Shown here one piece after another: positions 2,215-54,486 of a stretch of 64,000 nucleotides of DNA. The position numbers and the translations under genes are program-made. Source of the stretch: Ereboglobus sp. PH5-10 (GTDB lineage Bacteria > Verrucomicrobiota > Verrucomicrobiia > Opitutales > Opitutaceae); contig NZ_JAQFIP010000001.1 of assembly GCF_029504735.1 (NCBI RefSeq), forward strand, positions 248,001-312,000, read 5' to 3'. Positions within the stretch are counted from its first letter, which is position 1. Every line of letters starts with the position of its first letter. The notes beneath the pieces are model-generated. The model was given only the letters and a program-made list of their open reading frames with translations, ran no database searches and had not been told where the DNA came from.

Positions 2215-2219
2215 TTTTG

Positions 2220-2280
2220 GTAGGGCGAACCCTCCGGGTGAGCCGAGAATATTTCGGCTCACCGAGACGGTTCGCCCTAC
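2220..2280. repeat. Family D palindromic repeat, copy 1 (short form)
   Basis: The inverted repeat has arms GTAGGGCGAACCCTCCGG and GAGACGGTTCGCCCTAC around a short centre containing TTTCGGCTCA. It shares its arms with the 80-bp copies at 44156 and 51456, but the centre is about 20 bp shorter. It lies just downstream of the GDPD gene (minus strand) and could also act as an RNA hairpin. Confidence 0.8.
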
Positions 2281-2300
2281 CTGATATTATCGAAGTGAAA

Positions 2301-43236: not shown

Positions 43237-44123
43237 GCGACGGCCCTAAACGGAGCGGCGGCTTTCCAGCCGCCGGACGCGACGCAGTCGCGCACGGTTT
43301 GAAAAAAGGCGAGGCTTCGCCTCGTCCGGCGGCTGGAAAGCCGCCGCTCCTTGACGCACGCGTTCCTCGAAAGAGTGTTGCGGTCCCCCGCTGGAAATGC
43401 GTCTGCGCCTACGACGGCGCCCCGTTCGAAGGCTGGCAATCGCAACGCGGCGGGCGCGCGATTCAGGACGTGATCGAATCGCGCCTGCGCGAGATTTTCG
43501 GCGAACTGATTCGCGTGCACGCGAGCGGACGCACCGACGCGGGCGTGCATGCGCGCGGCCAGGTTTTTCATTTCGACGCGGCATGGAAACACGGGCCGGA
43601 AAAACTGCGCGCGGCGTTGCGCGGCGGGCTGCCGCAGCAAATCCAAATCAAGTCCGTGCGCGCGGTGCCGGAGGATTTCCACTCGCGCTTTTCGGCGACG
43701 GGAAAACTTTACCTGTATCATTTGTATCTCGGCGACGCCGACCCGTTCACGCGGCCTTACGCGTGGGCGATTGACCGCCCGCGTCCGCTCGACATCGCCG
43801 CGATGAAAAAAGGCGCGGCGGTGCTGCGGGGAAAACACGACTTCCGCGCGTTTTCCGCGCTGAACGGCCCGCCGAAGGAAGACACGGTGCGCGACCTGCG
43901 CCGGCTCGAAATCGCGAAGCGCGGGCGCCATGTGCGCATCGCCGCCGAGGCGGACGGGTTCATGTATAAAATGGTGCGCAGCCTCGTCGGCGCGCTCGTA
44001 GCGGTCGGCGAGGGCAAGCTCGCCCCCGATGATTTGCGCGAGTTGTTAAAAAGCGGAAAACGCACGACTCGCGTGCAGACCGCGCCGCCGCGGGGACTTT
44101 TTCTGGAAAAAGTATTTTATTGA
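43233..44123 (+). CDS. truA: tRNA pseudouridine(38-40) synthase TruA with repeat-encoded N-terminus
   Basis: The 296-residue protein carries the TruA core from about residue 53 (WKCVCAYDGAPFEGWQSQ). The catalytic Asp102 is in GRTDAGVHA. Other motifs are KLYLYHL, HDFRAFS and YKMVRSLVGALVAVG. It makes pseudouridine in the tRNA anticodon arm. The first 50 residues are unlike TruA. Residues 7-40 are encoded by a perfect long palindrome (43252-43350). No ATG or GTG exists in frame between this palindrome and the core, so the GTG overlapping the ruvX stop is the best start; a TTG near residue 23 is an alternative. The extension is Gly/Pro/Arg/Lys-rich and probably disordered. Confidence 0.93.
   Translation: MSDGPKRSGGFPAAGRDAVAHGLKKGEASPRPAAGKPPLLDARVPRKSVAVPRWKCVCAYDGAPFEGWQSQRGGRAIQDVIESRLREIFGELIRVHASGRTDAGVHARGQVFHFDAAWKHGPEKLRAALRGGLPQQIQIKSVRAVPEDFHSRFSATGKLYLYHLYLGDADPFTRPYAWAIDRPRPLDIAAMKKGAAVLRGKHDFRAFSALNGPPKEDTVRDLRRLEIAKRGRHVRIAAEADGFMYKMVRSLVGALVAVGEGKLAPDDLRELLKSGKRTTRVQTAPPRGLFLEKVFY
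43252..43350. repeat. Family E palindrome inside the truA 5' coding region
   Basis: Two identical 28-bp inverted arms (43252-43279, starting GGAGCGGCGGCTTTCCAGCC, and 43323-43350) enclose two smaller hairpins: GCGAC-GCA-GTCGC (43279-43291) and AGGCGA-GGCT-TCGCCT. The 99-bp unit keeps the truA frame open. Confidence 0.9.
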
Positions 44124-44155
44124 GGCAGCCTCGCATCGCGGTTGGATTTTCCACG

Positions 44156-44235
44156 GTAGGGCGAAGCCTCCGGCTGAGCCGCGAGCATCGCGCGACATTC
44201 GAACGATTTCGGCTCAGCCGGAGGCTTCGCCCTAC
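44156..44235. repeat. Family D palindromic repeat, copy 2 (80 bp)
   Basis: Arms GTAGGGCGAAGCCTCCGGCT and AGCCGGAGGCTTCGCCCTAC are perfect inverted copies. The centre contains ATTCGAACGATTTCGG. It is preceded by CCACG and followed by CCTC, as in copy 3. It sits between truA and cysE. Confidence 0.9.
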
Positions 44236-44270
44236 CCTCACTATCGGAAACACCGACGGCACTTCCAATC

Positions 44271-50932: not shown

Positions 50933-52324
50933 TCAATCGCCGCACGCCACCGCCACCGTCACCGCCCACCACGGACCGCGTCCGCGCACCGCTGCCCAAT
51001 ACCAAGCCGACACATCCGTCCACGCTCCGCCCGCGTCATCACGCCAGCGTTCGCGCACGCGCCAGGTTTCACCGTCCTTCGTCGCAAAAAACTCCGACCA
51101 CATCACATCGTTGGCATCGCGGACGAGTCCGCCCGGCTTGATCGCAAACCCGCTCGCCCGGAAACAATCCGCCGCCGGATGCACCCCGCGCGACGCCTCG
51201 CGTATCCAGCGCAGCACCACAATGCGCCCGGCACCATCGGCGCCGGTTTGCTTGAACACGCCTGTTTTCCCCGCGAATCCGGAGGCGAATGCGGCGGCGT
51301 CCCGGGGATTCCGCAAACGTATCCACGGTTTGCCCTCGAACAACTCCGGCCAGCCGGGAAAGTCCGCGTCAGACGCGGTGCTGACCGTTCCTCGCTGGCC
51401 GGCCAACGGCATCACCGCCGCGCCGGAACACATCACCGCAAACACAAAAACCACGGTAGGGCGAAGCCTCCGGTTGAGCCGAACCCGCTCAAATGGCGCA
51501 TCCAATTTCGGCTCGGCCGGAGGTTTCGCCCCACCCTCGCGATTCGCCCCTTTCAGCCCGAATCCCAGCCACAACAAACCCGTGGCGAGCGCGGCGAAGA
51601 TTGCCAGCCCCACGCCTTCGTGCGCCCAGCCCGGCGCGCGCCACAATCCCGATTCGATAAAAAACAAAACCGCAGCGCGCACCGTGTTGCCGAGCAGGAT
51701 CGCGCACAATCCCGCGACGCCGAAAAAAAACGCGCGCCCCGCGCCAAGGCGCAGCCACGCCGCAACCGCGCACACCAGCACCCCGCCCGTCCAAAGCATG
51801 TGCACGCCGCTGCACGGCGCATCGACCACCACCACGCCGCCGGCCCACTCCAGCGCCACGCCGGATCGTTCCGTTGCGACACCAAACAACGCGATCAACG
51901 GACGCCCCAGCTCCGCGGTCAGCACGCGCAGCGGATACCCCGCGAAGAATTGCAGCGTGGCCGTCACCGGCAACGACAACGCGAGCAATCCCGCGCGGCC
52001 CAACGCACCCCCGCCCCGGCAAAACAAAACCGACAGCGCGCATACCAGCAACAGCGCGCGCAACAGCATGGGCGTCCCCGAAACCGGAAACGCGACGGCC
52101 AGCGCGAACACGCCCGCGACAATCAACCGCCACGCCGCAATGCGTTCGCGCCACACCGCGCGCGGCGTCAATATGAGCGCCAGGGCCAGCGCGACCAAGC
52201 CGAAGCGTTCGTCGCCGCCGTCGCCAAGCCGCGCCACAAACCAGCGCAACACCGGCCAGCCCGCAAGAAGCACGCCGGCGCATGGAGCGGCTTGCCCGCG
52301 CAATTCGCGCACGCTGTCGTTCAC
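50933..52324 (-). CDS. Exosortase fused to an EpsI-like soluble domain
   Basis: This 463-residue membrane protein has about eight helices (1-260) with the three exosortase catalytic residues: Cys171 in DAPCSGVHMLW, Arg216 in LGNTVRAAVLFF and His235 in GWAHEGVGLAIF. After a linker, one more helix leads to a soluble domain (about 310-463) with HPAADCFRASGF, resembling the EpsI/DUF3485 motif. Exosortases cleave and sort PEP-CTERM proteins. The GTG start overlaps the stop of the upstream VIT/vWA gene by 4 bp and has GGAGAGG 6 nt upstream, so coupling is likely; an ATG at 52363 would add 13 residues. A family D palindrome (51456-51535) encodes residues about 264-290 in the linker. Confidence 0.9.
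   Translation of the reverse strand: MNDSVRELRGQAAPCAGVLLAGWPVLRWFVARLGDGGDERFGLVALALALILTPRAVWRERIAAWRLIVAGVFALAVAFPVSGTPMLLRALLLVCALSVLFCRGGGALGRAGLLALSLPVTATLQFFAGYPLRVLTAELGRPLIALFGVATERSGVALEWAGGVVVVDAPCSGVHMLWTGGVLVCAVAAWLRLGAGRAFFFGVAGLCAILLGNTVRAAVLFFIESGLWRAPGWAHEGVGLAIFAALATGLLWLGFGLKGANREGGAKPPAEPKLDAPFERVRLNRRLRPTVVFVFAVMCSGAAVMPLAGQRGTVSTASDADFPGWPELFEGKPWIRLRNPRDAAAFASGFAGKTGVFKQTGADGAGRIVVLRWIREASRGVHPAADCFRASGFAIKPGGLVRDANDVMWSEFFATKDGETWRVRERWRDDAGGAWTDVSAWYWAAVRGRGPWWAVTVAVACGD
51456..51535. repeat. Family D palindromic repeat, copy 3, inside the exosortase CDS
   Basis: Arms GTAGGGCGAAGCCTCCGGTT and GGCCGGAGGTTTCGCCCCAC are the same as in copy 2 with few changes. The 80-bp length and the flanks (CCACG before, CCTC after) also match copy 2. 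The reading frame passes through it, encoding GGAKPPAEPKLDAPFERVRL and the next few residues. Confidence 0.88.
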
Positions 52325-54486
52325 GCCGCGCCTCTCCGCATTTTTTGTTCGCGCTTGCGCCACATCACCGCGGCGACCATCGCGGCGACGATCAGAAGCG
52401 CGACCGTTTCCGGTTCCGGCGATGTGGGCACGCTGTCGGCGGCGTCCTCGGTGACTCCGACCGCGAGCTCGCTCACGCCCTTGGGCAGCGGCAAAGCCTG
52501 CGTTACTTTTTTCGCCTGCGACGCGGCATCGGCGGACAAACGCGGCGTCAAATCAACCGCGACAAACGAGGTGAAGGGCGTCAGCAAGTTGTATTTCAAA
52601 CCCAACTCGATGATCGCCGCCTTTTGTTTCGGCGCGTCCGCGCGCAACGCGTGCAAGTCCTTCAACTCCCACAAGCGTTCGCGCGCCCAGAGCAGCGCGA
52701 GCGTGCCGTTCGCGTTCAGGTCAACGGCGTCGGCCACGGAGATTTCCGTGCTCCATTCGCCGCCTCCGGTTTGGCCGCCCAGCCGGATTGTCTGGGTTGA
52801 GGGGTCAATGTGGTCGGGCCATTTGCCGCACATCACGATGGGGCGCTGCGAGAGCACGTCGGGCGCGCTGAGCGAGCCGCCGGCGAACTCGACGCGCACG
52901 TTGGTAAGCACGGGTGACTCGATCATGTTGCGAAATTTCCCGGCGGCGTTTTGCGCGCGTTTTTCATTTTCGATCACGGTCGGCTCAGTGCGCCCGGCGC
53001 GCGCGAGACGCTCGATCAACTCGCGATTCACCGAGCTGCCGATGCCGAACGCGAACAGGTTGGCGTCGCCCAGGCTTTCATGCACGAGCGCGTAGGCCTC
53101 GGCCTCCAGATCGACATAGCCGTCGGTGATCACGACGATGTTGCGCGACACGCCCGCGCGCGTCCGCGGCAGCGCAAACGCGCGCTTGAGCGCGGGCAGC
53201 AACTCGGTGCCGCCGCCGTAATCGTTGTATTTGCGCCCGCTCTCGAAAAGGGCGATGGCGGCGGCGATGTTTTCAGTCGTGGCGGCGACGGAGGTTTCAA
53301 AAAGAGTGCGACTGGAGCCGGAAAAAAGCAGCACGTTGAACGTGTCGATGTCGCGCAAGTTAACCAGCATTTCCTTGAGAAGGCGTTGCGAGACCTCCAG
53401 CGGAAAACCCCACATCGAGCCGGACACATCCATGACAAACACATAGTCGCGCGCGGGCATTTGCGCGGGTTCGACGCGCGCGGGCGGCTGCACGGTGAGA
53501 AGAAAATAATTTTCGCCCTTGAACGAATCGACCATGAGCCCCGTGGCGAGCGCGCCGCCCGCGAGCCGGTAGCGCAAGATAAAATCGCGGTTCATAGCGA
53601 TGCCCGCGCGCGGCGGCAGCGACACGCGCACGCCTCCGCCGACCTCCTCCGTGTCGATGCGGTGCGAAACGCATTTCATCTTTTGCACGCGGGTGCCCGC
53701 GAGGATTTCGGCGGTGAGCGTGAAGACGGGCTCGTTTTCGCCGTCCTCGTTTTCGCCCAAGTATGCCAGGCCTTCGCCGCCGAGGCGCTTCGAGCCGGCG
53801 AGCGGGTCGGGCGGCAGCGCATCCGGTTTTTCCTGGACGGGCTTGGGCGCTTTCCTTGTGTAACGCGGCCCGACGACCGTCGGAAAAACCCATTCGTATT
53901 CGCCCTCCTCGGGCGTGATGAGTTCGTTGTAGCGAAGCTCCACGGTCACCGTGTCGCCGGGCAGGATGTTGGCGACATTCATCTCGAAAACATTGCTGCG
54001 GTGCGATTCGAGAAGCGATGCGGTTTTGCCCTCGCGCCTTGCCTTTTCATAGGTTTTGCGCGCCTCGGCCTTTTCCTTGATCTGCGCCTCGATGCGCCGT
54101 TCGCCGACGGTCATTGTCATGCCGTGGACGGCGGCGCGCGTGGAGGCGGGAAAAATGTAGCGCGCCTCGAGCGGCGTCGCGCCCTCGTTCTGGTAGGTTT
54201 GCACGACGCGCACCCCGGCGATCACGCCCGCGAGCACGGCATCGACCTGCGTGCTTTTGAGCGGGAGCGCGTCAACGCCGTCCTCCGCGCCCCTCACTTG
54301 GAAATAGGGCGAAAGCGAAACATCGGGATCATCCAAATCGGTCGGGCCGTCCGGCGCGGCGACGACCGTGATGCCAAGCGCGATGAAGCCGAGCAAAAGC
54401 GCCGCGACGAAAATCAGGGCGCTGAGTTTTTGGTTGGAGTTTTTTGGCGCGAAGTGATGCGAAGATTTTTCCATGCGCGCGAGCAT
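52321..54486 (-). CDS. VIT/vWA-domain protein with PEP-CTERM sorting signal
   Basis: The 721-residue protein has an N-terminal membrane segment (about 22-44), a VIT domain (about 60-190; VVQTYQNEGATPLEARYIFP and AEARKTYEKARREGKTASLL) and a vWA domain (about 345-520). The MIDAS motif is DVSGSMW (D353, S355, S357). The C-terminus is a PEP-CTERM signal: SPEPETV (from 690), a hydrophobic stretch and the basic RKRE cluster. The adjacent exosortase should cleave it and anchor or release it at the surface. VIT/vWA proteins are linked to dedicated sorting enzymes elsewhere (marine sortase and XrtN systems, as recalled). No other PEP-CTERM protein is in the window. A start at 54474 (MEKSS) is possible. 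Confidence 0.92.
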   Translation of the reverse strand: MLARMEKSSHHFAPKNSNQKLSALIFVAALLLGFIALGITVVAAPDGPTDLDDPDVSLSPYFQVRGAEDGVDALPLKSTQVDAVLAGVIAGVRVVQTYQNEGATPLEARYIFPASTRAAVHGMTMTVGERRIEAQIKEKAEARKTYEKARREGKTASLLESHRSNVFEMNVANILPGDTVTVELRYNELITPEEGEYEWVFPTVVGPRYTRKAPKPVQEKPDALPPDPLAGSKRLGGEGLAYLGENEDGENEPVFTLTAEILAGTRVQKMKCVSHRIDTEEVGGGVRVSLPPRAGIAMNRDFILRYRLAGGALATGLMVDSFKGENYFLLTVQPPARVEPAQMPARDYVFVMDVSGSMWGFPLEVSQRLLKEMLVNLRDIDTFNVLLFSGSSRTLFETSVAATTENIAAAIALFESGRKYNDYGGGTELLPALKRAFALPRTRAGVSRNIVVITDGYVDLEAEAYALVHESLGDANLFAFGIGSSVNRELIERLARAGRTEPTVIENEKRAQNAAGKFRNMIESPVLTNVRVEFAGGSLSAPDVLSQRPIVMCGKWPDHIDPSTQTIRLGGQTGGGEWSTEISVADAVDLNANGTLALLWARERLWELKDLHALRADAPKQKAAIIELGLKYNLLTPFTSFVAVDLTPRLSADAASQAKKVTQALPLPKGVSELAVGVTEDAADSVPTSPEPETVALLIVAAMVAAVMWRKREQKMRRGAA

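Follow-up and report, generated by a model that had tools for sequence, protein, structure and literature searches.

The exosortase gene in the window, the stretch of 64,000 nucleotides of DNA analysed here, contains an 81-bp palindromic insert in frame, which adds one more case to a known kind of element, the intragenic dimers of GTAG repetitive extragenic palindromes (REPs). The evidence points to a REPIN (an inverted pair of GTAG REPs) with a cognate REP-associated tyrosine transposase (RAYT) as the mechanism behind it, and we consider it very probable that such a REPIN, copied by a RAYT, landed in the linker of an ancestral exosortase, kept the reading frame, was tolerated there and has since decayed as coding sequence. 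The interpretation offered in the initial annotation is partly supported. Its palindromic repeat was found in the exosortase gene where it had been placed. It is a dispersed element that keeps the reading frame and occupies a predicted disordered loop joining the membrane core to the C-terminal domain. The genome holding the window is referred to below as G000, and its congeners as G001, G002 and G003.

The exosortase gene and its insert

The features of the window that bear on the insert are as follows.

50933..52363, minus strand: gene for an EpsH/Xrt-like exosortase of 476 aa that has a soluble C-terminal domain and contains the insert
51455..51535, unstranded: REPIN (inverted pair of GTAG REPs), 81 bp, exosortase codons 277-303
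51456..51480, plus strand: REP arm, GTAG and hairpin, 25 nt, 0 mismatches against the degenerate family pattern
51510..51534, minus strand: second REP arm, inverted, 25 nt, 2 mismatches (GTGG, GGCCGA)
44155..44236, unstranded: intergenic REPIN of the same class as the exosortase unit, arms perfect, no unit at the syntenic position in G001
2219..2281, unstranded: third REPIN of the window, short-loop class, arm classes CCC/GGG and CCG/CGG

As judged from its family matches, the gene at 50933-52363 is a real exosortase gene. A profile search gave 74.4 bits against PF09721 (cut-off 25.7), the exosortase/archaeosortase model TIGR04178 gave 38.8 bits (cut-off 23), and the top-scoring NCBIfam models were XrtQ and XrtT, each under its own cut-off. 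Residues C184, R229 and H248, which we take to be the catalytic Cys/Arg/His of the EpsH membrane domain, are unchanged across all 17 aligned sequences. The gene call rests on these family matches because the codon statistics are weak (flank scores of -0.008 and 0.016, with the antisense frame slightly above). The ORF at 52321-54486 on the minus strand, which overlaps the start of the exosortase gene, ends in the tail SPEPETVALLIVAAMVAAVMWRKREQKMR, presumably a PEP-CTERM-like motif, and its product is likely a candidate substrate of the exosortase.

The palindrome had been given as 80 bp; with the closing G and C included it spans 51455-51535, or 81 bp, equal to 27 codons. Counting from the GTG at 52363 these are residues 277-303, and the residues 264-290 named in the initial annotation denote the same DNA counted from a GTG 13 codons further in. 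At its outer end one arm has GTAG and the other the variant GTGG. The insert encodes a proline-containing linker of 27 residues (G-G-A-K-P-P-A-E-P...R-R-L-R-P-T). In an AlphaFold2 model built from 17 sequences (mean pLDDT 80.3) there is a helix at 247-276, pLDDT below 50 at 277-296 and a helix at 290-321, with pLDDT again below 50 at 323-332, beyond the insert; the insert is thus predicted to occupy a disordered loop starting at the end of the last exosortase core helix.

The repeat family and its candidate transposase

Folded as single-stranded DNA, the exosortase unit reaches -29.8 kcal/mol (z = -5.2, with none of 200 shuffles as good), and the intergenic copy at 44156 has z = -10.7. The 22-nt core of the arm has 82 matches at up to three mismatches in the 3.58-Mb genome, and a degenerate 25-nt arm pattern has 123 matches on many contigs; the reversed control gave 0 in both searches. 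From the core matches and 100 of the 123 pattern matches we catalogued at least 69 units in G000, a lower bound, comprising 58 inverted pairs and 11 single arms; a stricter mismatch limit again gave 69 units, of which 56 were pairs. The catalogue omits one double-counted arm by the RAYT gene and one stretch repeating the window, and two weak sites on contig C7 from the 22-nt core search fell below its threshold. Measured without the closing G/C, pair lengths cluster in two ranges, with 32 units at 61-62 bp and 15 at 78-81 bp.

The initial annotation had noted that the exosortase and 44156 copies share flanks of 4-5 bp. This is correct for that pair (CCAC and CTC) and does not extend to the family, where across the 58 paired units a single G/C alone is kept: the closing G or C just outside GTAG is present at 114 of the 116 arm ends, including both ends of all three units in the window, and 4 of 3306 unit comparisons match over 4 nt on both sides. 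We therefore rejected the view that the longer flanks belong to the element. In the arm consensus, GTAGGGCGAA-xCx-TCn-xGx-TGAGCC, the two triplets pair with each other, and the main stem triplet classes (CCC/GGG, GCC/GGC and CCG/CGG) are compensatory. This intra-arm stem pairs at 0.943, whereas 1000 shuffles averaged 0.667 and never exceeded 0.744. The two arms carry different stem triplets in 24 of the 58 paired units; within each arm these units still pair at 0.90, and the long hairpin is at 0.65, the latter by construction. Since within-arm pairing persists where the arms differ, the conserved object includes the single REP hairpin and is not one long inverted repeat alone.

A Y1_Tnp search of G000 gave eight matches. 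One of these, an ORF of 152 aa (G000:C4:189077-189532), is immediately flanked by a 79-bp unit on one side and an 80-bp unit on the other; its stop codon is the TAG of the downstream REP, and it scores 94.4 bits against the NCBIfam REP-associated tyrosine transposase model NF047646 (cut-off 80). None of the other seven has such an REP arm in the flanks examined, up to 1.5 kb. The family thus has GTAG outer ends, an imperfect palindrome in each REP, inverted doublets, dispersed copies and a cognate RAYT flanked by the same REPs, the features by which GTAG REPs and REPINs are recognised. G001 has 73 arm matches of this REP family, yet its best match to the 152-aa RAYT is only 44% identical; with no close copy in G001, a single genome ties the RAYT to the units.

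The 25-27 nt inverted arms around a loop also resemble short terminal inverted repeats, and the Rickettsia palindromic elements (RPEs) behave similarly in genes, in the accessible part of PMC2229807. The unit could on these grounds be a MITE or RPE-like element mobilised by a DNA-strand transposase with terminal inverted repeats, a reading that we regard as very improbable: the hairpin of each arm is kept also in units with unlike arms, the GTAG ends and the unit-flanked RAYT are REP hallmarks, and no target-site duplication was detected beyond chance. For the last point, sixteen ways of setting the boundaries were compared with a dealt-out control. When the unit is taken to end at the closing G/C, matching 2-bp flanks occur in 4 of 58 units (4.25 by chance) and 0 of 58 match at 3, 4, 5, 6 or 8 bp; the maxima over the fifteen other settings are 10/58 at 2 bp (4.29 expected), 4/58 at 3 bp (1.03 expected) and 1/58 at 4 or 5 bp. 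A DDE-type MITE with target duplication was therefore rejected, there being no clear excess over chance.

The units have close counterparts in three described systems. Opitutus terrae belongs to the Opitutaceae. GTAG REPs are RAYT-associated and O. terrae has the most intragenic GTAG repeats, according to the accessible part of a 2013 survey (PMC3733652). In that survey, dimers or groups that encode 20-30 residues make up more than half of the intragenic inserts, and the targets include repair, helicase and RNA-modification genes. The O. terrae elements resemble ours in their GTAG tags, in forming dimers within ORFs that give 20-30-residue inserts, and in their targets (repair/helicase and RNA-modification genes); they come from another species with what is probably another REP consensus, and no exosortase is named among the targets in that part of the text. 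REPINs were defined in Pseudomonas fluorescens in 2011 (PMC3116915), and as described there they share with our units dispersed inverted REP doublets, palindromic cores and REPs flanking RAYT genes, although the passages available concern extragenic space, whereas about one seventh of the units catalogued here lie in protein genes. The RPEs of Rickettsia (PMC2229807, PMC3733652; both in part) are likewise palindromic, dispersed, in frame in conserved genes and apparently tolerated, and an RPE-bearing guanylate kinase is described as translated and active, with altered affinity (PMC2229807). Unlike the present units, RPEs measure 105-146 bp and are given no RAYT association in the same passages; the likeness noted here is one of behaviour. 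Our literature search found no paper linking exosortase with repetitive extragenic palindromes, and a single one that brings up REPs, RAYTs and Verrucomicrobia jointly.

Other repeats and RAYT-like genes were noted in the same genomes. A second RAYT-like gene in G000 (C3:21508-21933, L256), 44% identical to the 152-aa RAYT, is bracketed by a different GTAG REP, GTAGGGCGGTTTCGCCGAAACCGCC, which also lies beside its counterpart in G001 (C1:216053-216478). G000 would then have two transposases and two REP families, as expected if RAYTs each own a REP. In G003, the RAYT query gave 34 matches, nearly all of those listed being to approximately residues 84-141 and in open frames of 235-463 aa, which may represent a multi-copy transposase-like family. 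A second, unrelated palindromic repeat (GGAGCGGCGGCTTTCCAGCCGCCG...) occupies 43246-43386 of the window, at the start of the truA ORF, where G001 has a few bases only; searching the genus's four genomes with it gave 26, 42, 66 and 44 matches, with 40 candidates scored per genome and one palindrome possibly counted on both strands. The truA ORF has a long N-terminus that probably does not correspond to real protein.

Units in other genes and the history of the exosortase linker

The initial annotation held in-frame insertion of this kind to be rare outside Rickettsia, which is not so here: ten units, about one seventh of those catalogued, lie in nine protein genes of G000. These are the genes below.

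recF
metH
mnmG (two units)
mpl
hemH
menC
a penicillin-amidase-family gene
a Rad3-type helicase gene
the exosortase gene

The menC unit, the second arm of which is decayed (7 mismatches), was below the codon filter and is counted on the family match alone, and the family match of the Rad3-type helicase lies mainly on one side of its insert. Three further units lie in genes of G001, namely rsmA and the genes for an SNF2 helicase and an AddA/UvrD-type helicase. The G000 counterparts of the first two are without the unit, and the AddA/UvrD-type unit does not appear among the neighbourhoods catalogued for G000. In G002, units occur in mfd and hrpA. The units in mpl, menC and the SNF2 helicase lie at domain boundaries, and that of the AddA/UvrD-type helicase lies inside a domain match. 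In recF the unit is present in G000 and G001 and decayed in G003, and G002 aligns without it, showing a clean empty site. G002 also lacks the first of the two mnmG units.

Among 252 genomes of the family, 34 match the exosortase at E ≤ 0.001, some of them weakly. The initial annotation had named, as support for an insertion, orthologs lacking the insert and aligning cleanly on either side of it. The comparison comes out in favour of an insertion, but the insert is not lacking in the nearest relative, G001, whose exosortase (95% identity) has the unit at the same place. The exosortases of G243 (66% identity), G006 (53%) and G265/G266 (52-53%) align on both sides and have unrelated linkers of differing lengths, as do the more distant orthologs. 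In the G003 exosortase (L165) the linker keeps AGCCTCCGGTTGAGCCG, part of an arm in the same frame, with 16 of 17 arm bases; its local score of 14 exceeds that of all 1142 background windows (maximum 10), and none of 400 codon shuffles attained it. Compared ungapped with the whole 27-nt arm, the same linker gives 17/27, a value that 117 of 2000 codon shuffles also reached, as did 34 of 764 background windows, so that of these comparisons the local 17-nt sequence match alone is significant. As G001 has the unit and G003 keeps part of an arm, the insertion is old, not recent.

Between G000 and G001 the insert differs by 3 synonymous and 3 nonsynonymous changes in 27 codons, which are small numbers, equivalent to 0.132 and 0.051 per site compared to 0.062 and 0.022 in the rest of the gene; for synonymous and nonsynonymous changes alike, the insert thus differs about twice as much as the remainder of the gene. 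No ortholog was found that is close enough to display a nucleotide-exact empty site for the exosortase unit, and linker length and sequence vary among the relatives. The 44156 copy is absent from G001 and likewise has no clean empty site there, the intergenic spacer being different throughout. The G003 linker has been enlarged by 15-bp tandem repeats beside the decayed unit. Linkers grown by 15-bp tandem repeats occur in both the exosortase and recF (L182) of that genome, encoding VRQPA-like and QNSPG-like peptides, and the peptide EHGQDARAT occurs twice over in the N-terminus of the G007 exosortase (L035), apparently as a further translated repeat.

The full-length orthologs have a linker of other sequence in this position, and the present one is common to G000, G001 and in part G003, as it would be if it were ancestral protein sequence, palindromic by chance, with no insertion involved. 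The initial annotation had named a linker shared by all orthologs, distant ones included, as the mark of such ancestry; the distant linkers proved unrelated, and distant exosortases are without this sequence. The same sequence family moreover recurs across the G000 catalogue, mostly outside recognised genes, and is found in the unrelated RecF and MnmG, with empty sites in G002. An ancestral linker is therefore extremely improbable, and was rejected on the genome-wide family and the recF empty site.

Our preferred account is that of a REPIN insertion. By analogy with known systems, a RAYT, as a single-strand (HUH/Y1) enzyme, would recognise each REP via GTAG and the small hairpin, and would copy the inverted REP pair, with the variable loop between, around the genome. 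One such copy would have landed in the exosortase gene of an ancestor of the genus, between the last core helix and the helix toward the C-terminal domain, where the 81-bp insert would have kept the frame open and given rise to a disordered, proline-containing linker of 27 residues. The enzyme would have tolerated the longer loop, and the insert would since have decayed like ordinary coding sequence. We infer transposition by the 152-aa RAYT, translation of the insert, its tolerance by a working exosortase, and selection on surviving inserts and frames.

Reading frame, retention and possible recruitment

All 13 intragenic units (12/12 without menC) are read as GGT AGG GCG AAG CCT CCG GCT GAG CC. 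Of 116 unit readings, 103 are open in the frame in use and 89 in the alternative (GTA GGG CGA AGC...) that is usually free of stops. At these openness odds of 103:89, and taking insertions as independent, the bias has p ~3e-4 for 13/13 and ~2e-3 for 10/10. The count uses the best reading per unit for G001 and excludes the mfd and hrpA units of G002, which were found via a protein query. Two G000 ORFs (L113 and L134) that passed the filter in the common frame have no NCBIfam match and were left uncounted, and the two other-frame readings that passed it in G000 are antisense shadows of recF and the exosortase gene.

Intragenic units are also more often present in G001. Of those G000 units that the search pattern for G001 can detect, 9 of 10 intragenic ones are found in G001 as against 19 of 43 others (Fisher p = 0.013; repeated with other settings). 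Absence of the 24 other units mostly means that no pattern match was found, and may reflect loss, decay or later arrival in G000.

One frame out of two open ones, the higher retention, and the position of the mpl, menC and SNF2-helicase units at domain boundaries are what might be seen if the inserts had been recruited, the REPIN peptides being kept as proline-containing linkers that adjust domain spacing in the exosortase and other enzymes. However, frame bias and retention can be explained by purifying selection alone, and tolerance would yield the same pattern, with harmful frames and sites and frame-breaking deletions removed. The greater divergence of the exosortase insert between G000 and G001 argues against tight constraint, and in G003 the linker has decayed and been enlarged by tandem repeats. 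Recruitment in place of neutral persistence is in our view improbable. We put forward only tentatively, as a rather unlikely generalisation, that REPINs are a steady source of in-frame, proline-containing linkers of approximately 21-33 residues, with one frame and interdomain or loop sites selected and with in-gene inserts outlasting others. If true, a selfish repeat would have become a generator of protein linkers, that of the exosortase included.

In-frame REPIN insertion is itself already known; the fresh part is the frame bias and the high retention in genes. Frame bias of intragenic REPs was not found in the portions of the literature searched, which included passages of PMC3733652, PMC3116915 and PMC2229807. 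In-frame units are now known in about a dozen genes of the genus, in one frame throughout, and the single frame of all 13 copies makes the question 'tolerated or selected?' a testable one. Together these make an unusually complete case of the passage from selfish repeat to protein within one genus, where the family can be seen together with its likely transposase, copies both shared and private, the empty recF site in G002 and decayed remnants in G003. For annotators, orthologs in this genus differ by mobile peptides in loops.

The rsmA and SNF2 helicase counterparts in G000 offer no clean empty site, the same loop being occupied by other short repeats. In rsmA (L226/L249) and the SNF2 helicase (L223/L244) the loops carry a REPIN in G001 and TTCAGCCC- and GAGTCAG-type repeats in G000, and may thus be landing places for different kinds of repeat.
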